Positions 46,917 through 61,807 of a DNA stretch of 64,000 bases are shown piece after piece (within the stretch, counting starts at the first letter, position 1; each line of letters starts with the position of its first letter). A program made the translations under genes and the position numbers. The DNA lies in contig JAHLJZ010000047.1 in assembly GCA_025602915.1 (NCBI GenBank), forward strand, positions 62,001 to 126,000. The letters are read 5' to 3'. Source of the stretch: Paraphysoderma sedebokerense. Its lineage: Eukaryota; Blastocladiomycota; Physodermatomycetes; Physodermatales; Physodermataceae. The notes beneath the pieces were generated by a model. It saw only the letters and a list, made by a program, of their open reading frames with translations. It was not told where the DNA came from and did not search any database.

Positions 46917-47145
46917 GTATCGACGGTATAAACTGTGTAATTTTTTGGTGGAAGATTGACGTGCGCGTATTTAAAACTTGAGCCACTTAATATAATTTTG
47001 GCCTATCAAATTCTTTGCCTGGGCCGTGGACGACTCTGGTGTGCATGCATGGGCTTCGATGGAATGATTTTGGCTTGGTCCCTGCCAAATAGATTTGCAC
47101 TCATCTTACATCTTACTCTCTTTCTTTGTATGAGTTCAAAAAAGC

Positions 47146-48456
47146 ATGAAAACCTTGAAAGCCCGAGGAACATCAGGCTTCTCGTTAGATTGCATCCCGC
47201 AAGAAATCCTATTTTGTGTAGCTCAGCAACTTGAACTCGTCTCCGTAGATGCTATCGACTACCAACAAGAAGTATTGAATTTATGCTTGCTTTCGTCGTA
47301 CTATGCTCGTCTGTTTATGCCAAGGCTCTACTTTTGCCCCGTTCTGAAGACCCACAAATCCTGGTTCAGTTTTAGTCGAACGCTAGTTTCACCAAAGATA
47401 AACACCTTTCTCCCTTATGCGACATTCATTCAGCATCTGGATATCTCGAAACTGTACAATATAGAGCGAAACATTATAGAAGATGACATATCCAACAATA
47501 TTATATATCGGATTGTCAATCGATCCCCGAATCTCCAGAGTATTGCTGTCGGCAATTGTAGATTGGTAAATGACGGTTGGATCAGCGCCTTAGATCAACG
47601 TCCCACCTCAAAATCTTCGAAAATGCACACAGGAGTCTGTACACTATTTCTCCCCGGGTGCTTCAACTTGTCGGACGACAAAATGACATACTTTCACAAC
47701 TGCAATGATTGTGCGCACGATAATCGATCGAGATTTGCGTTTTCAATTTCAACAAATCGATTAAGGATATTGCTCGAGTCAGATATCCCGGGATGGAAGC
47801 AAAAAACCATTTACATCAGTCGAAATTCTAAAATTGGAAAGTTGGTAGAGCAGAAGAAGTCTTTCATAGGGTTCTGTTCAGAAAGCACTTGGATAGAAGA
47901 CCAATGGATCGTCAGGACTGTTTTGAAGCGGTGGTTAAACTCCAATTACACATATATCCAGAGAATAGTGGCGGGGTCCGATGCGTATAGGTTGTTCAGG
48001 AAACCACCGTTACTTCTGTCGCACTTAGACTCAGAGGCATCGAACTACCCTTCGCCGGTTTTGCATTCAACATATTTTCGACGACTAGAAGACTTCTCCG
48101 AAAATTTGGTCTATCATTGTCGCAATTACAGCCTACCCATCACATTCGGTTTCGCACTTTGTAGTGTTTCATATGATGGCTTAAGAGACTTCATTTCCCT
48201 TCCGCATGCGGGCTACCGAAAATACCATGGACAGGGGTCGATTGCATCGAACGAAGGTCATCTACTGATGCTGGAAATGGAAATCATTGATAGGAGAATT
48301 AGATTCGTCCCAGGAAAATTCTTAATTGCAAATGTATTCAATGTGAAGAGCCTTTCAAGCGTCTCTGATGTAACTTTCAACAGAGGAAAGACGGAATGGA
48401 GGATCAATCGCAATTTGCGTGATCTGGAAAATACTTTGTTTCCGAATCTCATATGA
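47146..48456 (+). CDS. F-box-like protein
   Basis: A single exon of 436 codons. Near residues 13-60 it has LDCIPQEILFCVAQQLELV, then LNLCLLSSYYARLFMPRLYF, the pattern of a fungal F-box followed by its Leu-rich helix. The rest has irregular leucine-rich repeat-like segments (IYRIVNRSPNLQSIAVGNCR; VCTLFLPGCFNLSDDKM) with a C-terminal half I do not recognise. F-box proteins bring substrates to SCF ubiquitin ligases. Length and intronless structure are common for this class. A possible upstream frame at 46956-47234 overlaps but is not the gene. Confidence 0.65.
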   Translation: MKTLKARGTSGFSLDCIPQEILFCVAQQLELVSVDAIDYQQEVLNLCLLSSYYARLFMPRLYFCPVLKTHKSWFSFSRTLVSPKINTFLPYATFIQHLDISKLYNIERNIIEDDISNNIIYRIVNRSPNLQSIAVGNCRLVNDGWISALDQRPTSKSSKMHTGVCTLFLPGCFNLSDDKMTYFHNCNDCAHDNRSRFAFSISTNRLRILLESDIPGWKQKTIYISRNSKIGKLVEQKKSFIGFCSESTWIEDQWIVRTVLKRWLNSNYTYIQRIVAGSDAYRLFRKPPLLLSHLDSEASNYPSPVLHSTYFRRLEDFSENLVYHCRNYSLPITFGFALCSVSYDGLRDFISLPHAGYRKYHGQGSIASNEGHLLMLEMEIIDRRIRFVPGKFLIANVFNVKSLSSVSDVTFNRGKTEWRINRNLRDLENTLFPNLI

Positions 48457-49020: not shown

Positions 49021-49572
49021 ATGGCAAAACTTACTATCGCTTCGCTATTCGTTATACTCGCTGCTATTATCTCTTCAGACTCTACCGTGTCTGCCAATGT
49101 CGATTGTGCTTGCCCTAACGGTCGTAGTTGGGCAATAGACAGTCGCTGTTACTGCGGACCTGAAGCCGACAAAATTGAAACTTGTGTTCGAGCTATTGCC
49201 CCAAATTGGCCTTTTGCTGGTGACAAACCTAGAGGAACATCCCCTCCAGCAGATACTAGCTCTTGCCCAGATCCAGTACAAGATCCCACTGGGTTTAGCT
49301 CATGTGTATCGAAGAAAGTAAACGACAGTGTCCCAAAGAGTTTAGGCAACGCTGGAAAAATTGCTCAAGATTGTGCCGCCAGCACTAAAGCAGTTCCGCA
49401 GAATGGACAGGTTCAACCTGGAGCAGATGGAAAAAATGGCCAATCTGGAGCGACCGGTCGAAGCGATACCAGCGGGAGTGTTCCAAATAACTCTGCCACC
49501 TCCCGAAGTTCAGCATCCGTTTTATCCTTCACGATAGGGGTTACAGCTGCAATCGCAGCTATCGCTTTGTAG
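49021..49572 (+). CDS. Array gene 1: GPI-anchored cysteine-patterned protein, long form
   Basis: First of six paralogs. Begins MAKLTIASLFVILAAIISSD, a signal peptide ending near SAN-VDC. The mature domain has CACPNGRSWAIDSRCYCG, then EADKIETCVRAIAPNWPFAG and SCPDPVQDPTGFSSC, then CAAS after about 35 residues: eight cysteines in all. A Gly/Ser/Asn-rich stalk follows and the chain ends in a hydrophobic segment SSASVLSFTIGVTAAIAAIAL after a Ser/Asn-rich omega-like site, so a GPI anchor is likely. I recognise no known family (no CFEM spacing, no hydrophobin spacing). No intron. The ATG used is the one directly before the signal peptide; the frame is open upstream. Confidence 0.85.
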   Translation: MAKLTIASLFVILAAIISSDSTVSANVDCACPNGRSWAIDSRCYCGPEADKIETCVRAIAPNWPFAGDKPRGTSPPADTSSCPDPVQDPTGFSSCVSKKVNDSVPKSLGNAGKIAQDCAASTKAVPQNGQVQPGADGKNGQSGATGRSDTSGSVPNNSATSRSSASVLSFTIGVTAAIAAIAL

Positions 49573-50339
49573 AATACCCTGAAGCTATACATAGATATAG
49601 AGCAGCTATATATGTTTGTATTTTGCATATATAATAGTAGTCTCTGAAATTGTATCGGCTGTTGTATTTATATTTGTAATATTTGAAGTGATTCACATAT
49701 CGATAGCCGTAGGGACGATGGAGGATAATAAATCCGATTAATAACTATTTGACTGTGAAATTGAAAGACCATAATAACAAATGGTTGAAACTCGTCATAA
49801 TTTAGCTGCCAATAACAAAGTTGAAGCCGCTATATTGTACAATGCAGTGAACAAAATTCAGTATAGCAGCGAGATTTGTGATCTGTGGCGAAAATAATTA
49901 GCATGTACGATGCTTTTTTCCTGGCCAATTGTGCATAACAACATGATTTCACTTGATTATTTTTTGAAATACGCCTGTCTTATCTATTGAATTCAGCTTA
50001 CGGCCGGAAATGGAGTCAGTCTATGAATGAACTTAAATAATACCCCGGATACGTCATTCAACATGCTGCCCCGATATTGAATAGACAATTGTCGCAGGTA
50101 TAAGTCATAATAAAGAAATGCATAACTTATTTAAACACTGTGCTCAATATTCCATTAGAAATGGCTTATTTCCTCAATAGGATATAATTGGTGTGTTCAA
50201 ACGACAAGCTTGATTGGTAAACTTTCCGTTGCATATACATCTAACACGGAGCGACTAGGCGTGGGCTATAAATCCTGGGCCCAGTATGCAACTACAGGAT
50301 TAGACAACGAAATTACAAACAGTTCCTCAGCGTCAATAA
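49573..50339. other. Intergenic between array genes 1 and 2
   Basis: About 770 bases, AT-rich. 3' UTR of gene 1 and promoter of gene 2. No decayed copy is visible. Confidence 0.35.
50267..50272 (+). promoter_or_regulatory. TATA box of array gene 2
   Basis: TATAAA within GGGCTATAAATCCTG, about 70 bases before the ATG at 50340. Spacing and context fit a core promoter. Confidence 0.5.
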
Positions 50340-50911
50340 TGAGAAAGTTTGCCATCACATCACTCCTCGTTTTCTTCGCCGCCATAGTTTTTTCCGACTC
50401 CACAATAATGGCTGCAGATGTCGGCTGTATCTGCAGTCAAGTCGAACAGCAGAACCTCTGCTTCTGTGGACCTGAAGGTGAAAAAATAAACAGCTGTATT
50501 AAACCTATCGCTCCGAATTGGCCTTTTGAGGAAAAGCCGAATTCCGCCAACACAAACTGCCCAAATCCGGTTGAAGATCCAACCGGATTTAGCTCATGTA
50601 TCGCCGCTAAAGCTCCGAAGCCACTGAGTAATGCCAATCAAATCTTCGAAACGTGTAGAACTCAAACTAAAGCTGTACCGCAAAATGGGCGGCCATCGAA
50701 CGATCCCAACAATAATGGAAATATCTCAAATGTTGGTAATAACAACGGGCGCACGACTGTATCTTCCGGGACCGCGGCAACGACTCCGACCCCTGTTAAT
50801 GATGGAAGCAAAGCTGGTAATCAGAAAACCTCCGGGGGCTTCACGAATGCAAATACTATGATGCCGCTTGGCATTGTCGGAGTCGCTGCTATCGCCGTCA
50901 TCGTGTTGTAG
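50340..50911 (+). CDS. Array gene 2: GPI-anchored cysteine-patterned protein, long form
   Basis: Begins MRKFAITSLLVFFAAIVFSD with a signal peptide cut near TIMA/ADVGC. Core: CICSQVEQQNLCFCGPEGEK, then INSCIKPIAPNWPF, CPNPVEDPTGFSSC and IFETCRTQT; eight cysteines at the family positions. The WAI block between the first two Cys pairs is replaced (SQVEQQNL). A long Asn/Gly/Thr-rich stalk (about 60 residues) leads to MPLGIVGVAAIAVIVL, a GPI-type tail. Paralog of gene 1, with which it shares KAVPQNG before the stalk. No intron. Confidence 0.85.
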
Positions 50912-51650
50912 AAGTATTGATCAGTGGAACCAGTTTTTTTGTAGAAAGTATATAGTTCTGAATTTTGAAACATTTTCAAAGCTGTGCCGCGTACTTCGGG
51001 TATCGGAAGATTATGTAATATTTTATATTTTAACACATACATTCGTAAATTTTGTACCGTTTTTCTGTAGCAATCATGATTCATTGAGATATCTGTCTGA
51101 TAGTTAGTGGAAGAATGTATATCTGCGTTAGAAACTTAAATAATAGGTTGCAAACATACCAACTGCAGGTGAATGGATTGGGTCGATCATACCAGCAACC
51201 TATATATGGGATAAGTACCGGACATTACACATTGCATTTAGGTCCCTATGTTGCAGCTGCTAAATGCTGTTTTGGGACTGTCACTAATGAAGAACACCAA
51301 TATGCAGTGATTGATAGCTCTTATTTATTAGAAAACTCTTAACAACCTTATTAAAGCGATCTGTACCCAGATAACAATCTGTAAATTTGTACTTGTTTTC
51401 TATAAATCGCTATCTTCAAAAGTTTCAGTAGTTTCATTGGCCAAATAGATGTGTGTACACTAGATTTCAGCGCAATTGGGCGAGATTTCAGGCTATCCAG
51501 CTTATTTTCGTCGGTCGCAAGCGGAGCTGACCGAATTGAGGCTTTCGCTAAACCAAAGCGCAGCTTAAGCTTTCATTAAATGCTGCGCAATTAGGGCGAT
51601 CTGGCAACATATATACTCCTAGTTATTCGACATTTTTATTTTCGGTCGCA
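50912..51650. other. Intergenic between array genes 2 and 3
   Basis: About 740 bases. It contains the direct repeat listed next. Open frames here (51115-51342) have no family and a weak composition. Confidence 0.35.
51470..51600 (+). repeat. Direct repeat in the promoter of array gene 3
   Basis: The motif GCGCAATT(A)GGGCGA occurs twice, at 51470-51483 and 51585-51599, about 115 bases apart and 50-180 bases before the start of gene 3. Imperfect by one inserted base. Possible regulatory-site pair or local duplication. Confidence 0.45.
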
Positions 51651-52148
51651 ATGAAATTCGGATTTGTTCTATTTCCTCTTTTGGCGCTGTTCTTTGTTTC
51701 AGGAATGGCAGCAGACTGTAACTGTCCTGGAAATTGGGTAGTTGACAACAAATGCTATTGCGGAATAGAGGCTGAAAAGATAGAAAAATGTGTTCGTTCT
51801 GCGGCTCCAAATTGGCCCTTCTCTGGCGATAAAAGAACAGAACCTCCTTCTTCGACTTCAAACTGCCCAGATCCTGTACAAGATCCAGTAGCCTTCGCCG
51901 CCTGCGTCACCAACAACGTGAACGACAAAATAGTAAAACCTCTTACTGGGGCGGGCGATATCCCTAGAAGCTGTATCTCTTCGACAAATGCGGCTCCAGC
52001 GGATCCTATGGCTGCAATCCCTGGGGTTAGTAGAGGGCCGGGAAGCCCGCAATTTACAAGGAACGGAGGAGAGAGGAATACTGCATTGATGTTTTCTGGA
52101 ATTGCTATTTCATTGACAATTCGATTTGTAACATATATCTTATTTTGA
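51651..52148 (+). CDS. Array gene 3: membrane-anchored cysteine-patterned protein, long form
   Basis: Begins MKFGFVLFPLLALFFVSGMA, a signal peptide ending before ADCNC. Core: CNCPGNWVVDNKCYCG, EAEKIEKCVRSAAPNWPFSG, CPDPVQDPVAFAAC and IPRSCISST; eight cysteines. The stalk is shorter than in genes 1 and 2 and Pro/Gly-rich. The last 24 residues (LMFSGIAISLTIRFVTYILF) are hydrophobic, with one Arg, so this may be a GPI signal or a C-terminal membrane anchor. No intron. Confidence 0.85.
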   Translation: MKFGFVLFPLLALFFVSGMAADCNCPGNWVVDNKCYCGIEAEKIEKCVRSAAPNWPFSGDKRTEPPSSTSNCPDPVQDPVAFAACVTNNVNDKIVKPLTGAGDIPRSCISSTNAAPADPMAAIPGVSRGPGSPQFTRNGGERNTALMFSGIAISLTIRFVTYILF

Positions 52149-52561
52149 GTATAAGCTGTGTGGGAATTAGCATAATCATTTGATAGAATATAAACTGCAT
52201 GAGGAAGATGATTACTATTACTTCGACAATAAATTCTTGCATAAGGCATGTAGATTTCAAGAGTACCGATCTGATATCAGTACGCAAAATGAATATTCAT
52301 TTAATTGTAGCACGGGCTGAGGTCTTAATGATTTCGGACATAGGATTGAGGTAACACTATCAGTGAGTATTGAACAGTGTGAACACTGACAACAGACAAA
52401 GTGACCAGTCTAAATGCGGATTGTTCACTTATGTCACCCGAATTGGTCCCGTCCCTCACTCGGAGTCGAAAATTCGAGATGCCTCTGTAACGCTTCAGTC
52501 AGACCCTTAATGTCAAGGAATATATAATCCTCGCCTTCATTTTTAGAGTTATAGTTCCTAG
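52149..52561. other. Intergenic, nothing recognised
   Basis: About 410 bases before the Patched-related gene. No motif recognised. Confidence 0.35.
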
Positions 52562-55500
52562 ATGTCGCCATGTACGGGAAAACGGTATAATTATTCGGGT
52601 TTGAGTAAACTTGCTCAGTGTCGCGGTTTCTTGTCCAACTTCCTCGTCCGTCAAAATGTGGCCGTAGCTACCTTTGTTGCTCGATATCCTTATTTCATCA
52701 CATTCTTCGGTATTCTTCTTGCGCTCATCGGCTGTATCGGATTGAAGGACATCTATTTAGATACAGATATCACGCAATTATTCAGTTCGCGATCGAACGA
52801 TATTGGGAGAAATGCAAAACTGCACAATGAGATATTTGGAGGGTAGCTTATTTTCAATTATACAAATTAAAAGATATAATATGTTGATATAAACTTGGTA
52901 TTCTAGGCAACGTATCGTAACATTCATCTATGAACCATCGTCAGTGGCGGGTGACATGAACGTATTGCAACCGAAGTATCTCAACGACTACTGGGATTTA
53001 GAGAATCAAGTGATGAGCCTTAAAACAAAAGTAGGAAATCAGTCTTACGAATTATCTGACCTCTGTTATAAGCTGGTGGCGGAAGATAAAACCATGAAAT
53101 GTTTTTACTCAAGGTTGATTATTATTTTGACTGTAGCGGCCTCAGAACGCTATCATGAAATTTGGCAGTTCAACTTATCTATCTTTTCTTGTAGTATTAC
53201 GCAGTTTTGGCCAGCCAAGCAAGTAATGTTGGATGACAACCGGCGATTATCAACCCTTGGAACGTACTCCAAAGGTTTTTGCGGCATGGTTTTGGATGCT
53301 ACTTCGATGATTGGGGGAATGGACACTGTCCCAATTGGTAATGCCGGATCATACACTATAAGAGGCGGGAAAAGTTTACGATTTATGCTGCTCATGAACG
53401 CAAAAGCAAGCTCGGAAGCAGTGAATGCATGGGAGCGAGAATTTGCGAAACTCGTTAATGAATACAGCAGCAGCAATAAGCTGGGACGCGTTTGGTGGTT
53501 GACCCAGGCAAGTGGAAGGAGTTCCCTCGAAATTCCGAATGCGTGTTCTCTCAGGTCTCGCTCATGCTGAACTGCATCTTTGTCCGTTACAGGAAGCACC
53601 CGTACAATCTGCCATAGAGACATACTCAACGATAGGACTCATTTTCGGACTGTCTTTCGCCCTGTCATTTGCAATTGTCGCTGTCGTCTCCTACTCGTCG
53701 CAGAGAAATGACTCGAAAATTGCTATTGGAATATATGGCCTCTTCATTTCCATTCTCGCTTCTTGCTGCGGCATCGGAATAACCGCTTGGTCCGGTATCA
53801 CATTAAATCCGCTAGCTATTCAAATCCTTCCGTTCTTTGTAGTGGGAATCGCGATGGACACTATGTTTATACTGAGTGCTAGTTTTTCGCAATTCGAAGT
53901 AAGGAATCAACGCATCGAACTGTTCACTGAACACATTACTCATAAAATATTACTATTTTAGGGAACCTCGGAACAAAAGCTTCAACGAACAATGGCCACT
54001 TCTGGAACAAACATTGTAATCTCCAGCTTTATCATGACAATCGCGAATTTTCTGTGCACAATCGTCGACATAAACCTAGTGAGGGATTTGTCTATGCAGG
54101 TTCGGGGTGATTTATCGTTAAGTGCTTTATGTGATCACACTTACCAATTGGTTTTTCATTCTCATGCTTCAGCTGGGCACTATTCTTATCGCCAACTGTT
54201 TCCTACAGATGACTGTCTATGCGGCTGGATTAGTTCTGAATGATAGGGCTGTTCGATCCGTCCCGGCTACAGAAGTATGAAATTATGTGTAACAACTTAA
54301 TTACTGTTTGTCTGACTGACCTCTCCCAGACCCCAGCCGACGAGAATTCAGCGAAGCCGAAGGACCGATTCAGTCGAGTTAAGTATGCGTGGTATCGATA
54401 TCACGCATGGCTAGCTCAGATTCCATCCGAGCACCGCATAAAACGTAGAATGGTCCGTATTTTGACATGACGCTCCAAATTATCTACAATTTTTCAACCA
54501 AACTCTTACCTCGTGCAGATGATCGTCTTTGGGTTTATCGCAATTTTACCGATGATTGGAATTCCTTTTAATGTCTTTTCGATCGACACTTTGGACGTTA
54601 TCTCGCCAAAGACCAACGTGGGGCAATTCTTGAGTCTAATGTCAACTGTAAGTGACAGTATCAATTAGTATTGGTTTATGATAAAAGCTAATTTTGGTGA
54701 TTTAGCAATACAATGTGTCCGATCCATTCTTCATAACTCTAAATCATACCAATCAGGATTTCACTGTTTCGCGTCAGGCTGCCCTCACCAAGCTTTATAC
54801 CGATTTGCGGTCTTCTCCATATCTGACAAGCCAACTGTTATCCTGGTTCGAAAATTTGCGATTATGGACTGCTTTTGTTTCGCCTTATGCCTCAACATTT
54901 CTTGAAGACAAATCAACCTTTCGCAACGAGACAATAATGTTAGACTTGGCGCGTACATTTCTAAACGATACGGCTAACAATGGAATCTGTCAAAAAGGAG
55001 ATGTGATTTTTGACGTTGACGGAAAGATTAAGTTCTCGCGCTTTATGGGGTATCTGAAAAAGCAAAAGCACGTTTCCGCATATTGGGATGCGTTAACTGA
55101 TATCACAAGAATAATCGAATCCTCTCAGGTCACAGGAACGGTGAGTTAAAGGTTGCAATATGAATTTCAATATTATTTGAATCTGACGTACGATGATTTA
55201 CAGCCATCTAGCATATTTGATTCATTTTTTGTGCAATTTGATCACCTACTCATCAAATTTCTGCTAATTGTCGGCCTCTTTCTCAGTAAGTACTGTTTCT
55301 TTTGTACCTCTTCAATCTGAGCCCAGCTAAAAAAATATGTTACAGTCACTACAGCAGCCACCATTTATTTGTTTCTATCTTCAATGATGCCATTGGTAGC
55401 CGTCCTCATTACGATCATTCTCATCACCACCACATTATTCGGCCTCTTCCCTTTGTTTTCTCTGCAAATAAACGGAGTGTCCGTGATGAATAGTGTCATC

Positions 55501-55866
55501 GCTATTGGATTAGCAGTCGATTATCTCGTCAATATTCTTGGCTGTTATAAACCTGCTTTACTTAAATCGAACTCACAAACTCGGCCAATTCGAGCAGCTA
55601 ATGCCGCGCAGACAAATCTGAGGTTAACCATGGAGAGTTTAACGAAGTCTACAATTTGCAGTTTATTTTCATTAGCAGTATTGGCGTTTGCGGAGGCGCC
55701 GTTGGTAAAGAAATATTTTTGCGGGATGTATGTCCTGATGTTGGTAATAATTTACGTCTACAGCTTATTCATCTTTCCAACATTGCTGGGGATGTTGAGC
55801 GGTTTTAGTGATCCAAAAAGCAATGACAGCGGTCCGGAAGGCGACACAGGCTATATAGATCAATAA
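52562..55866 (+). CDS. Patched-related RND membrane protein with sterol-sensing-type domain
   Basis: Many-exon gene. Exon 1 from ATG 52562 gives a cytosolic N-terminus and the first helix YPYFITFFGILLALIGCIGL with DIYLDTDITQLFSSRS, as in Patched/NPC1. Extracellular domain 1 follows (WDLENQV..., then YTIRGGKSLRFMLLMNAKAS and NAWEREFAKLVNE). The sterol-sensing-type block has APVQSAIETYSTIGLIFGLS, LASCCGIGITAWSGITLN and QILPFFVVGIAMDTMFI, then NIVISSFIMTIANFLCTIVD and LGTILIANCFLQMTVYAAGL. Domain 2 (NVSDPFFITLNHT to about 55140) precedes the final helices with MPLVAVLITIILITTTLFGL and SVIAIGLAVDYLVNILG. GLAVDY carries the RND-type acidic residue. One intron (53508-53592) appears to be GC-AG. About 900 residues. 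Patched-related proteins move sterols or lipids; cargo here is unknown. It sits inside the secreted-protein array. Confidence 0.9.
53508..53592 (+). other. GC-AG intron in the Patched-related gene
   Basis: Between WWLTQ and EAPVQSAI the exon ends CCCAG and the intron begins GCAAGT, ending in TTACAG. Using the nearest GT instead changes the frame into unrelated sequence, while the GC donor keeps the conserved EAPVQSAIETYS helix in frame. Confidence 0.7.
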
Positions 55867-56164
55867 TTGTAACTGTCTTTCTTCATTGACGGCATTTAGA
55901 ATATAGAAACTATATAATACACATTCGTTTGTCCCTCCTTAACGATACGATCTCTTCTTTGCAAAGAAGACAGTTGGCCATTAGATACGACGACTGTTGT
56001 CACCAACACCATCTTTGTTGACACTCCACTATACAGTAATTTTCGTGAATCAGTGGGAATTGTTGAAAAATAAATGCGGTGATGACAAATACAGGTGTCC
56101 ATGAGTGTTATCATAGCATTTAACGAAACTCTTTCTTCCACATCTGGATGTTTGTGGCGTCTCG

Positions 56165-57138
56165 TCAAAATAATTTGGCCGTTCTTAGCTTACTGTAGTG
56201 TCGTTGGACGCCTTCGGCTATGAGACGGTCTGCTTCGGCAGATTCTGGCGATATGTCCCATTTTTCCGCAAACATTGCATTGAATATTGCTCGGTAAGTG
56301 ACATTGCTTACGATGATGACCGCTTTTGCCGCAGCGATAACATTTGAATTGAGTCCGCAAGGCAACTTCCAATATCAAGACTACAGGAGGAGTTTTTGCC
56401 ACCCATTATTTCAACACCGGAGGGAAGAAATCGAGTTCTTCCGGCATGTAGTGCGGTTGGGTTGGTTGAAGGAAGAATGCCACGGCGGCCTGCCTCGTCT
56501 TCAAGCAATCCTTCTTTGACGTCAAAGTAAGTCTGATTATTAGATTTAGCTGTCCTTGCATATTGCTTGTACTTCTCTCTAAAGTATTGACCCAGGGATC
56601 GCCAGAGGTGCATTATCTTCAGATTATCATCAATGCCGCCACCGTTTGCCTCTATTGTTTGGAAGCACTCCTCCAGTTGACCGAAATGTTCGACCAATGT
56701 GATATGTGGGTGATACAGAATGGTTGATAAACGAATCATCGCTTCGAGCCAAAGCTCCCGACTCGAGGGTTTATATAAACTTTCTAACGTTTCTAGAGCT
56801 AGTTGTGGATCCGTGAGGCGTTCGATTTGTAGCAATATATGCGGACTGACACTATATTCAATATAGGCCATGACACGGTCTCGTTTGATTAACAGATCGT
56901 CATCATCTGCGTCTGAACTAGCGGCGATAGGATCTTGTTCCCTCTGATGACTGCGAGTTGCGGCTGTTGAGGAGGACTTTGAATGTAATATGTGGGCCAG
57001 GCCTTTCTGACGAAGAAAACAAATTAATTCTTCTTTCCAAGGAATGTAATTGTCCAAGCCCCTTAATATCTGTACCATGGGTTTTTGCCGATTGAATGTT
57101 GATGGCGTCCGATGATGATTGATGATATCGACCAGCAA
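56165..57138 (-). mobile_element. Ty1/copia-type gag relic with zinc knuckles, no pol
   Basis: A minus-strand fossil of a copia-family retroelement. The N-terminal part, at 57138 onward, has the UBN2/gag pattern with WKEELICFL, a helical capsid-like middle and LESLYKPSSRELWLEAMI. Further left are two CCHC zinc knuckles (CYRCGKSGHHRKQC and CNVCGKMGHIARIC). No protease, integrase, reverse transcriptase or LTR follows within the window. The gag part is better kept than in the relic at 27 kb, so this one looks younger. It is partial, with about one or two breaks. It lies inside the secreted-protein array, between genes 3 and 4. Confidence 0.8.
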
Positions 57139-57850
57139 TGGTTGAGTTAGGAACAGCTGCCGCTTGATGTACTACTACTTTCCATAAAATCTGCCAACAC
57201 CTTGTTTCTTCTGGAATTTATACTTTTGAAATATATAAATTATACAGCCATGAGAATATGTTTCTATCAGTTTCCATTTCGTTACAATGATGACATGAAT
57301 ACGCCATGAAGCGCAAACTGACGATTTCCGCCATCTGTTCACTATGTTCACCAGGTAAAAGTTGAGATTTGGACAATATTCAGAGCTTAGAAGAGCTTCT
57401 AAATATGTCGCATTCCTGCCAACACTAAAAACTCATTAGGAATAAAATTGTTCCGTATAAAGACAGATTTCGCATCATGGTTAGTTTAAGCTTTTTTGTT
57501 CTAAGGTTTCAGCAATTGCGTTCGCATTTGAAAGTTCCCGTTATGAAGCATTATACTTCCATGCTTGGCCTTTCGTTCTAATCCAGAACGCTGGTGGATT
57601 AAAGAATTGCGATATGCTTTTTTTAACTTTTTACTGATGGAGAAACTGCTACCGAATACCTATATTTATTTTCGTCCTTGGCGGGGTGTCAGCAATGGAT
57701 TTAACCTATCAAACAGGCTGTTCGGAGAAATTGTTACTACTCTTCGTCATTTTCATAAAAAGATATATGTCAAAAGTACATAAATACAAGAGTCTACCTT
57801 GTATAAAAATATACAAATTTACCACTTTCAATCAATCAAATAGAACAATC
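57139..57850. other. Intergenic upstream of array gene 4
   Basis: About 710 bases between the gag relic and array gene 4. No LTR-like direct repeat was found at either flank of the relic. It contains the TATA box of gene 4. Confidence 0.35.
57802..57810 (+). promoter_or_regulatory. TATA box of array gene 4
   Basis: TATAAAAAT, about 45 bases upstream of the ATG at 57851. Confidence 0.45.
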
Positions 57851-58258
57851 ATGACGAAATTCGCTCTTATCGCTGTCCTTGTTGTTTTCTCTACTGCTAT
57901 TCTAAGCGACATCTTTGTATCCGCCAATTGCATTTGTCCCAATGGTCGCACATGGGCTATAAATAATCAGTGTTTCTGTGGAGTTGAAGCCGATAAAATT
58001 GAGAACTGCGTTCGAGGTATTGCTCCCAACTGGCCGTTCGCTGGTGAAAAATCATCAGGAAATGATATACCCAAGCAATTGGACAATCCTGACAGAATTG
58101 CTGAAAATTGTGCCTCTCGAAGCAGAGCCCAATCTGGTAACGGTAATGCACAGAATGGAAATAGTGGGAGCGGGAAAAAACCAAGTAAAAATGTTACAGG
58201 CAATGGCAGAGGAAGTGGCAGCGCGAAACCTGGGGCCAGTGGTGGAAAAAAACCTTAA
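57851..58258 (+). CDS. Array gene 4: secreted cysteine-patterned protein, short form
   Basis: Begins MTKFALIAVLVVFSTAILSD, signal peptide cut near VSAN. Core: CICPNGRTWAINNQCFCG, EADKIENCVRGIAPNWPFAG, then directly KSSGNDIPKQLDNPDR and IAENCASRS. The CPDP...FxxC module of genes 1-3 is absent, leaving six cysteines. The tail is Gly/Asn/Ser/Lys-rich (GNSGSGKKPSKN, GGKKP) without a hydrophobic end, so the protein should be secreted, not anchored. No intron. Confidence 0.85.
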   Translation: MTKFALIAVLVVFSTAILSDIFVSANCICPNGRTWAINNQCFCGVEADKIENCVRGIAPNWPFAGEKSSGNDIPKQLDNPDRIAENCASRSRAQSGNGNAQNGNSGSGKKPSKNVTGNGRGSGSAKPGASGGKKP

Positions 58259-59212
58259 TTAATGATTATGCTATTCTACATTTTACGAGTCCCTTGTAAT
58301 GAAATCCGATGGAGAACCTAGCGGCAGTAATCGCGACCTGTATTATATAATTGGGATCATGTTAGTGTAAAACCATTGTCATGTTTATCTGTGCATTTAT
58401 TATATTAAACAAAGATTAGTCTCTTCAAATCAATACAAGTGCGTCCTTTTAGTCTATTATTGCCAAGGTAGAAAAGCCTCAGATATGCTGAAACCACTGA
58501 ATGACGCTGCTGGAGTTGTTCAAGATCGGATATTTCAACTTGAGAACACACAATGGAATGACGAGAATATGTAAGCGGGCCGAAGAAGACAATTTTTAAA
58601 GCAAAGGAAGTGAGAATGAAAACTTAAACTTAGATGGATTAGTGTTGTTCTATTAAAACTGAAGTCATGCGACAATCTACAACAGTTATTCCCGCGCAAC
58701 AAGGTGTAATGAATACTTAAGTCAAGCTGCACCAAACTCTGTTCCTGATATCGGCTTTGTAAATTTTATAAATTAGTATTTCAACATCAGCATTGGCCAG
58801 GTCAATAAGAACAATTGAGCAGAAACAAGTTACCAGTCAATTTAAGCTTTCCGTTCATATGTGGCTATTTCATCAGCAGTTGCGCTGGTCGCAGTCACCA
58901 TTTGGCTTTTGACGCAGTATATTACATAATCGGCCTTGGCTTGTAATTATACCCTTTAATACAATTTGGTGGCTTCTCACGCTTTGAGCATGCTTTTGAG
59001 AACTTTTTTTTGATGCAATATGAAGAAAATGCACATTTATTCAGCCACGTCTTTGTCGGACGTCTGGTACAAGATTAACGTATAAAACAAGCAGTTCGGC
59101 AAAATAGCTAGCAGCACATCCATTAAACACTAAAAATAAAATTTTGAACTATATAAAGTAGCGGATCCCCAACGCAGTTCTATAATTATCTACTTTCAAC
59201 CAATACCACACA
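58259..59212. other. Intergenic between array genes 4 and 5
   Basis: About 950 bases. No decayed copy seen. Contains the TATA box of gene 5. Confidence 0.35.
59150..59158 (+). promoter_or_regulatory. TATA box of array gene 5
   Basis: TATATAAAG, about 55 bases upstream of the ATG at 59213. Confidence 0.5.
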
Positions 59213-60249
59213 ATGACCAAACTGGTTATTACAACACTACTCGTTCTTTTCTCTGCTGCAATCATCGGGGTCTCAGCGAACTGCAACTGTCCAAGCGGAG
59301 TCCAACCGCTTTTGGCTGTCGCCAACGATCTATGTCTGTGCGGAGCAGAGGCGGAAAGAGTTTTACAATGTGCTAAATCTGTTGCTCCTGTAATGAGCCG
59401 AGTAGGATTTTAGGCGGAAACCACGGAAACAGGAATGTATTTGAACAAAATACAAGATAACTCGACGACCAATTAAGCTAAGACCCAAATCGGCTGTCCT
59501 TTGATTCTGAGTGGTAGAAATCTGAAATATTACATGTATCACATCAAATTAGTATCAATGAACGCTTGTTGATGTGCGATACGAAGGGCTGGCGTAACAA
59601 TAAGAAACCACATATTATTTTTACGCCCGCTCCTGGCTGGCCCACAAGCCTGAGTACAGAAGAAGGCAACAAAATCGCTCGCGACTGCGCATCTAAAAAT
59701 AAAGCGTCCCCTCCAAGTGGGAACCGAAATGACAAAAATGGAACCAAAAAAGAAGGTGGAGGTGGAGGTGGAAAGGCTGGTGGAAGTCAAGGTGGAAATG
59801 GTTGCGGAGACCTCGATGGAAATCCAAGTGGAAATCCAAGCGGAAATCCAGGTGGGAACTTGGGTCGAACCGCAAGCAAAATCCCTGGCGGAAGCGGAAA
59901 CAGAACCGGAATGGGAAATGGAAAGAACAACACAGGCAATGGTAGTGGAAACACCGGCTCCATCAAAACTTCACCGGGGAATTGTTTCTGCCAGGACGGT
60001 AAAACATGGAGTGTGAATGGCCAATGTTTCTGCGGTGCGGAGTACGAAAAGATGCAACAATGCGTTCGATCAATCGCTCCGAATTATCCTTTTGAACCAT
60101 CCAAAGGAGGCGATCCGTCGAATTGTCCTGACCCGGATCAAGATCAGGTCGGCTTCGACAAATGTATCGAAAGTGGTATGCCAAAAGAACTCAAGGATAA
60201 GAGTGAGATCGAGCAAAAGTGCGCATCTCATGTTAAAGGCGGTAAATGA
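59213..60249 (+). CDS. Array gene 5: two-domain secreted cysteine-patterned protein
   Basis: Exon 1 is 59213-59389 and begins MTKLVITTLLVLFSAAIIGV with a signal peptide. It encodes a short-form first domain (CNCPSGV, CLCGAEAERVLQCAKSVAP) with the later NKIARDCASK after the intron (59390-59586, donor GTAATG, acceptor GAAG). Then comes a Gly/Asn-rich linker (about 59740-59960, repeated GNPSGN units). A second, long-form domain follows: CFCQDGKTWSVNGQCFCG, AEYEKMQQCVRSIAPNYPFE, CPDPDQDQVGFDKC and IEQKCASHVKGGK to the stop. The second domain has eight cysteines, the first six. There is no hydrophobic C-terminus, so the protein should be secreted. The junction is inferred: the two frames could also be two genes, but only the second would then lack a signal peptide. 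Confidence 0.65.
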
Positions 60250-61377
60250 ACCGTCAAGTTTGAACCTTGATGAAAATCTGTTGAATGAAACGGGAAATGA
60301 TGAGAACGAAAATGTAAACGATATCGTGTGACGAGTTCTTCATCTTACTGGAGTGTCGGGCTTCCAGCAATGAAGCCGTTGTATTAAATGTAAAATTATA
60401 TATCTGTATATTGCACTTTCAGAAAATGACACTTGTATAATAAAATCTTCACACATACCGCCTGAAGCATAACTCAATTTCCATTGCCCTCAATGGTTCG
60501 GCAATCTGGCACTGTGGCACTTATTTCATAGCAGTGACAATTAAAATATGTTGGTTAAATCATTTTTATTATTCATCCCAGCAGAACTAGCAATTGAACC
60601 GAAATTGCGCGTACGTGTAAGCTTCTCCAATTCAGCGATCAGGCGATATTTCGCATAATAGATCCCGGGTCAATATCATAATTCCATTTCCGGTTGCTCA
60701 GTTGCAGTGGCTGAATACGTTCGATTGCAATTTGTAATTGTAGAATGATTCCATTTAAAAAGCGATGCAACTATATGCTAGTCATTAAATAAAGTGAAAC
60801 CTTTGAAAATATGTTAGGTTGCTCCGGAAGAATATTTCTAAGCGCAAAATTTTAAACAATTCCTTCAAATATTAGCTGCAATCCGATGGTTTAGTATATT
60901 GTGTGAAGTATATTGATTGAGCGGTAGGTTTCAATGGATTGTATAATATTTCACAATGCTCCGTTCAATGAGTTCCGCAGACACTGACTTTCGGATGAAC
61001 CTACTTCAATTTGGCTGTGTCGAGGCATCAGCAGTTCCATCGAGGGCAACCTCAGTTGGCGATGCTGGAGATGATCATTATACATGCAGTAGGCTTGTTA
61101 TAATGTCTCGGCATCAGGTCCGGTGGCAAAAAATATTTAAAAATAGTTTCTTGCAATTTTCAAATGATAGAATAAGTGTCGCCATTCAAGTATACCTATT
61201 TACAACCTTGCGTAGTAGTGTCGGCAATAGAATGATCCAGGGAACAGGCAGGCCGGTAAAATTGCTACTACGCACAGTCTAGAACCATAAATAGAATATG
61301 GAAGTACATAAATAGATAAAAAGAACTTAAATGCTGTTCAAATATCTACCCCTCCTAATACAAGCATCACCAAAAAA
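60250..61377. other. Intergenic between array genes 5 and 6
   Basis: About 1.1 kb. Nothing gene-like apart from an open plus-strand frame at 60956-61282 that lacks any resemblance to the array or to other proteins. Confidence 0.35.
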
Positions 61378-61807
61378 ATGGCTAAAATTGCTGTGATCAC
61401 CATTGTAGTTCTCTTCTCTACTGCCATTCTTAGGGACTCCTTTGTGTCCGCCACTTGCATCTGTCCGAATGGTCGCACTTGGGTTTTGAATGAGCAATGT
61501 TATTGTGGTGCTGAAGCCGATAAAATCGAAAGCACCCAACTGGCCTTTCGCCGGTGAGAAATCAGCTGGAAATAATCCTTCAGCTGGTTTTCCGAAAGAA
61601 CTAAGCAACGCCAGTCAAATTGCCGAGGATTGTGCATCGCAAGTTAAGGGCCAGCCAGGGAATGACAAAGGAAATGGAGGCGGGAAAACGGGAGGGGGCA
61701 ATGGCGGTAACCCCAGCAGCGGTGGAGGTGGAGATGGAAATGGTAATAGTGGTGGGAAAGATGGAGCGGCGGATAAGCCGGCAATCCCACCAAAATCCAA
61801 CTGTTAA
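61378..61807 (+). pseudogene. Array gene 6: secreted cysteine-patterned protein, short form, probably broken
   Basis: Begins MAKIAVITIVVLFSTAILRD, a signal peptide, then ATCICPNGRTWVLNEQCYCG and AEADKIES, all like gene 4. Compared with gene 4 about 17 bases are missing around 61530, between the KIE block and APNWPFAGEKSAG, which removes a Cys codon and shifts the frame. The distal part, with APNWPFAG, IAEDCASQ and a Gly/Lys tail, continues in another frame to 61807. The best reading is a recent loss-of-function copy of the short form; an unrecognised splice or sequencing error is the alternative. The host gene has kept both halves nearly intact, so the event is recent. Confidence 0.6.

Follow-up and report, generated by a model that had tools for sequence, protein, structure and literature searches.

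What kind of protein is made from a run of six similar genes that match no catalogued family, and where in the life of a parasite of algae might such proteins act? The genes in question lie at 49021-61807 in a 64,000-nucleotide stretch of the Paraphysoderma sedebokerense genome (GenBank assembly GCA_025602915.1, contig JAHLJZ010000047.1, positions 62,001 to 126,000 of the forward strand), which is referred to below as the window, and its contig as C47. The organism is described as a blastoclad of the Physodermataceae and a facultative parasite of microalgae. A first-pass annotation, made from the sequence alone, had proposed a fungal origin and a tandem array of six plus-strand paralogues (here g1 to g6, in order); both proposals hold, in that all six loci lie on that strand and each begins with an ATG and a hydrophobic leader as read from the DNA, and the start positions also stand, except that g2 begins at 50339 and not at 50340. 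The array belongs to a family that is homologous, coding-constrained and leader-bearing, and that has no described relatives. The explanation favored here, to which a probability of about 0.48 is assigned as a whole, is that these are orphan secreted or glycosylphosphatidylinositol (GPI)-anchored proteins, in which a disulfide-rich head is carried on a variable stalk and may serve in attachment.

When g1 was compared with the organism’s own genome, the remaining domains of the family were recovered at E values from 3.7e-35 to 2.8e-4. A regular expression for the family core gave five matches in the window, all of them within the array, and none in 20 mononucleotide-shuffled windows. Differences between paralogue cores fell most often at third codon positions (881, vs 532 at first and 494 at second positions, over 1497 compared codons from pairs that are not independent). 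A census of the genome, in which g1, g2, g3, g4, the second domain of g5 (g5b) and the protein from a second family-bearing contig (C38) were used as queries and the best candidates only were scored, gave lower bounds of at least eight loci and at least nine domains, corresponding to g1 to g4, g5 (with domains g5a and g5b), g6 and two copies on C38. Two weak single matches in the same genome (E 0.8 on contig C30 and E 0.9 on contig C14) were taken as chance. The proposed count of six paralogues is thus correct for homologous loci in the array, but only g1 to g4 are intact single open frames (g5 is interrupted and g6 is frameshifted), and the family extends beyond the window.

The family is defined by an eight-cysteine core with the pattern C-x-C-x(8-11)-C-x-C-x9-C-x(20-26)-C-x12-C-x(18-22)-C, the spacings being taken from g1, g2, g3, g5b and the C38 protein, and also from the database proteins P0001, P0002 and P0004. 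The spacings of 1, 1, 9 and 12 residues are fixed and the remaining loops vary, such that the distance from first to last cysteine spans 77-90 residues in the eight-cysteine form and 61 in g4. In a core alignment of eight sequences (six cores and two whole proteins, with g5a and g6 left out), the invariant positions comprised C1 to C5, C8, the glycine after C4, the motif A-P-N-x-P-F, and the leucine and isoleucine that precede C8. The four motifs by which the first-pass annotation had characterized all six genes proved to be less evenly shared: CxCPNGRxW is literal in g1, g4 and g6 but not in other members; CxCGxEA(D/E)KIExC is literal in g1, g3 and g4 alone; APNWPFxGxK is found in g1, g3 and g4, and in g6 in another frame only; and IAxxCAS is restricted to g4, g5a and g6.

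Within the core alignment, C6 and C7 are both missing from g4 alone, and by reading they are also missing from g5a and g6. Because the two cysteines are absent together in these three domains, they may well be paired with one another, and the segment that they bound probably forms a disulfide loop that can be removed; as g4 and g6 are closely related (80% identity across 25 codons), the three cases are not fully independent. Outside the core, similarity falls away: the paralogue cores align well, the stalks do not, and the C-termini differ, in keeping with the first-pass description of a core that is conserved while stalks and anchoring vary.

Searches for known families returned no credible relative, in line with the original description of the family as unrecognized. 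None of five family proteins rose above the cut-off in Pfam-A or NCBIfam, and two sub-threshold Pfam matches of g2 (E 0.035 and 0.41) were taken as chance. When the eight aligned sequences were compared with Pfam at E<=10, with HMMER filters applied, a single match was returned in one of the eight (Herpes_capsid, E 6.1). The same collection was responsive to the surrounding DNA, in that six of seven neighboring frames were matched, including UbiA, sterol-sensing/Patched, copia gag and subtilase families; the neighboring frame at 47134-48453 had no Pfam match. Among PDB sequences g1 had no relative at E<=1, and a match to the family profile at E 0.64 was taken as chance. A search of 5.8 billion proteins, which requires shared 5-residue words, covers 0.55-1.75 of the query length and samples blastoclads to an uncertain degree, gave one match with a single sequence and five and two matches with profiles, all of them family members, and in the five-match search the interval between E 1.6e-50 and E 1 was empty; the profile search that had been suggested for relatives led to no characterized family. 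An EGF-like reading, suggested by the CxC spacing of the CxCPNG...CxC portion, had no Pfam support, and pattern scans for viral and prokaryotic relatives gave 18 and 16 stretches, none of which was a relative by tblastn.

A specific comparison can be made with CFEM domains, whose fold is a helical basket with an axial aspartate ligand for heme. Both groups have eight cysteines and occur in fungal extracellular proteins, and the C-x-C-x9-C segment of the array core fits the CxCx9-14C portion of the CFEM consensus, PxC[A/G]x2Cx8-12Cx1-3[x/T]Dx2-5CxCx9-14Cx3-4Cx15-16C (available text of PMC4530338). The core departs from that consensus in having C1-x-C2 rather than C-x3-C, in lacking the spacer between C3 and an aspartate, and in separating C5 from C6 by 20-26 rather than 3-4 residues. 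The full consensus, in either strict or loosened form, matched none of 11 ungapped entries (g1 to g4, g5b, the C38 protein and P0001 to P0005, some proteins being entered twice), Pfam PF05730 matched none of the eight aligned sequences under the settings given above, and the best CFEM match in the organism’s own genome (17.4 bits, on contig C139) fell below the cut-off of 22. In addition, the portion of PMC4530338 that was available reports CFEM to be absent from 36 species of Zygomycota, Chytridiomycota and Microsporidia. That the array family represents a very divergent CFEM-like module, binding heme or iron, is accordingly regarded as highly improbable, and the earlier exclusion of CFEM is upheld. 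Hydrophobins are likewise small fungal proteins that are secreted and contain eight cysteines, but these include adjacent Cys-Cys pairs, and no such pair occurs in any of the 11 family entries.

A parallel of a general kind is offered by those secreted proteins of fungal parasites that are rich in cysteine and confined to one lineage, and with them the array family shares a leader, a cysteine-rich core, a low-complexity linker and an arrangement in tandem copies, as well as the absence of relatives found outside the lineage. The family, which is apparently lineage-specific, is an orphan case of this common kind, set apart by its own fixed cysteine code, by the putatively removable C6-C7 loop and by its mixture of members with and without candidate anchors.

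Topology was read by hydropathy alone. By this measure hydrophobic leaders are present in g1 to g6, as the claim of a common signal peptide required, and the proteins of the array probably sit on the cell surface or leave the cell. The C-termini of g1 and g2 are hydrophobic and carry no charge in their last 15 residues, such that a GPI signal is plausible for both. The reading of the family as surface-displayed or host-facing draws upon the leaders, the hydrophobic C-termini (which are confined to g1 to g3) and the biology of the organism; disulfide pairing, GPI attachment, location and ligand binding are each putative. Several observations weigh against that reading: (i) the hydrophobic C-terminus of g3 contains one arginine and is thus a doubtful GPI signal; (ii) g4 and g5 have no hydrophobic C-terminus, and hence no anchor; (iii) the readable C38 copy has a polar end and no anchor (the other copy runs off its contig); (iv) with eight loci the array family is small by contrast with large adhesin families; and (v) the better conservation of the core than of leader and tail, which would itself favor the explanation adopted here, is a trend that reaches significance in no single pair, differences numbering 4/97 in the core vs 10/86 in leader and tail for g1 and P0001 (p 0.09), 15/88 vs 24/91 for the contig-end C38 copy and P0004 (p 0.15), and 15/88 vs 23/79 for the other C38 copy, trimmed to 167 residues, and P0004 (p 0.07; Fisher).

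The unanchored members (g4, g5 and one C38 copy) lend themselves to a different explanation, in which the family consists of secreted host-facing effectors, that is, soluble disulfide-rich proteins delivered onto or into the alga, where they would disturb its wall or its defence, and the anchored forms are side branches. The leaders, small size, richness in cysteine, lack of known relatives and parasitic habit of the organism would all suit such a role, and the hydrophobic C-termini of three of the four genes that are intact in the window are at odds with it; this explanation is considered unlikely. The Gly-rich tails or linkers of g4, g5 and g6 raise a further alternative, namely that the proteins help to build the wall of the cyst or sporangium, where disulfides and the Gly-rich tails would cross-link them, and that they have no specific ligand. 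Cysts of both a thin-walled vegetative and a thick-walled resting type do occur (PMC7912770, available text), but the retention of APNWPF and CxCGxEA in otherwise variable proteins suggests more than scaffolding, and a purely structural role is judged rather improbable.

What is described of the infection process is compatible with a function for the array proteins in attachment. A 2011 paper is said to have dealt with surface carbohydrates in recognition. In the available text of PMC7912770, swarmers attach to the alga and begin encysting at approximately 30 minutes, with penetration by a germ tube at one hour; that of PMC6446968 describes a sticky material in the zone of contact and recognition sites of the host that are stable to heat, and approaches the recognition of Haematococcus by swarmers through microscopy and treatments of host cells, with no fungal protein being named in that text. 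No text on recognition or attachment was found in PMC11797010. An RNA sequencing set for P. sedebokerense infection, PRJNA822859, which samples the time before infection and days 1, 3 and 5, is reported in the available part of PMC10276916.

Under the favored explanation of heads on variable stalks, an intact member would comprise an N-terminal leader, a disulfide-rich head and a low-complexity stalk, with a GPI-anchor-type hydrophobic tail in g1 to g3, and with g4, g5 and the readable C38 copy, which are without that tail, being either released or held in the wall. The head would be displayed at the surface of the cell or cyst, where it might bind a ligand of the wall or of the host surface during attachment or encystment, and variation in stalk and anchor would set its reach and release. 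Besides the leaders and the tails of g1 to g3, the points in favor of this explanation are the fixed cysteine spacings with their variable loops, the joint absence of C6 and C7, and the excess of third-position differences between paralogue cores. A bolder version, in which the heads adopt a novel disulfide fold whose C6-C7 loop is a plug-in element, are the means of attachment or recognition by which swarmers fasten to algal cells, and together form the repertoire with which this blastoclad parasite recognizes its host, is judged improbable as a whole.

The array itself would have been shaped by local duplication, by a two-domain fusion (g5) and by the decay of genes (g6, and perhaps g5). In g6, the C5 region is lost, the frame shifts after ...ADKIE, and an in-frame stop is found at 61555. 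In g5, the first domain is interrupted by a dispersed repeat of approximately 0.24 kb at 59390-59634, bracketed by GCTCCT hexamers at 59384-59389 and 59629-59634 (the listed span includes the second of these), which introduces an in-frame stop; the step from hexamer to hexamer is 245 bases, a length not divisible by three, and when it is set aside the reading frames on either side coincide. The repeat has 16 matching pieces in the organism’s genome (itself included, and many of them partial), and its copies differ in their ends. A copy on C30 is identical over the aligned segment save for one internal block, and the insertion therefore looks recent. Another copy, on contig C18 at about 1001-1250, is seemingly inserted in integrase-like sequence, as judged by eye. 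Comparison of the database model P0005 (283 amino acids) with the DNA indicates that it joins 59213-59401 to 59587-60249 and omits 59402-59586 as an intron, a splice predicted by the gene model; the repeat could be an intron of transposon origin, might be read as an introner, or could be an insertion that disrupts the gene.

The two copies on C38 lie in 1246-base blocks that are 99.7% identical and are separated by subtilase-like exons, at the extreme end of the contig, an arrangement that would fit true duplication and assembly artefact equally. One copy reaches the contig end before any stop, and the other is 179 residues long and finishes in a different frame, one that the end of the database protein P0002 does not share. 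Database relatives of the family include the P. sedebokerense hypothetical proteins BKA69DRAFT_1039411 (C38) and BKA69DRAFT_1176538 (C47), the locus-tag prefix of which was not found in open-licence PMC papers. P0001, which is 92% identical to g1 in the protein database search, and P0004 may derive from a different strain, from a closely related organism or from assembled transcripts. Neither g3, g4 nor g6 is among the protein database matches of the profile search, and these genes may therefore be unannotated.

Table 1. Positions and composition of the family loci in the window and on contig C38
Feature	Position	Strand	Description
g1	49021..49572	+	183 amino acids; leader, 8-Cys core 49096-49407, Ser/Ala/Gly stalk, GPI-type hydrophobic C-terminus
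g2	50339..50911	+	190 amino acids; leader, 8-Cys core 50414-50689, Asn/Gly/Thr stalk, GPI-type hydrophobic C-terminus; database protein P0003
g3	51651..52148	+	165 amino acids; leader, 8-Cys core 51711-52004, hydrophobic C-terminus with one Arg
g4	57851..58258	+	135 amino acids; leader, 6-Cys core without C6-C7 segment 57926-58144, Gly/Ser/Lys tail, no hydrophobic C-terminus
g5	59213..60249	+	two-domain locus: g5a 6-Cys, g5b 8-Cys
g5b	59980..60246	+	full 8-Cys domain, no leader of its own
g6 first piece	61378..61530	+	leader and C1-C4 region
g6 second piece	61490..61807	+	other frame; APNWPF motif, C8 region, Gly-rich tail
C38 copies	C38:203-556 and C38:7382-7735		two near-identical copies, outside the window

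Upstream of the genes, and also in favor of the explanation preferred here, a TATA-like box was found at -90 to -35 in five of seven regions (one C38 copy being counted), vs 9.7% of random places, the interval having been picked post hoc. Several apparent exons of a membrane protein of the Patched/sterol-sensing type lie between g3 and g4 (52562-55866 of the window), and a fragment of a copia-type gag gene (Retrotran_gag_2) is found inside the array on the minus strand (56311-57171).

The array provides a concrete set of candidates for host recognition in a parasite that infects cultures grown commercially for astaxanthin, and its cysteine signature can be used to seek relatives of the family in other zoosporic fungi.

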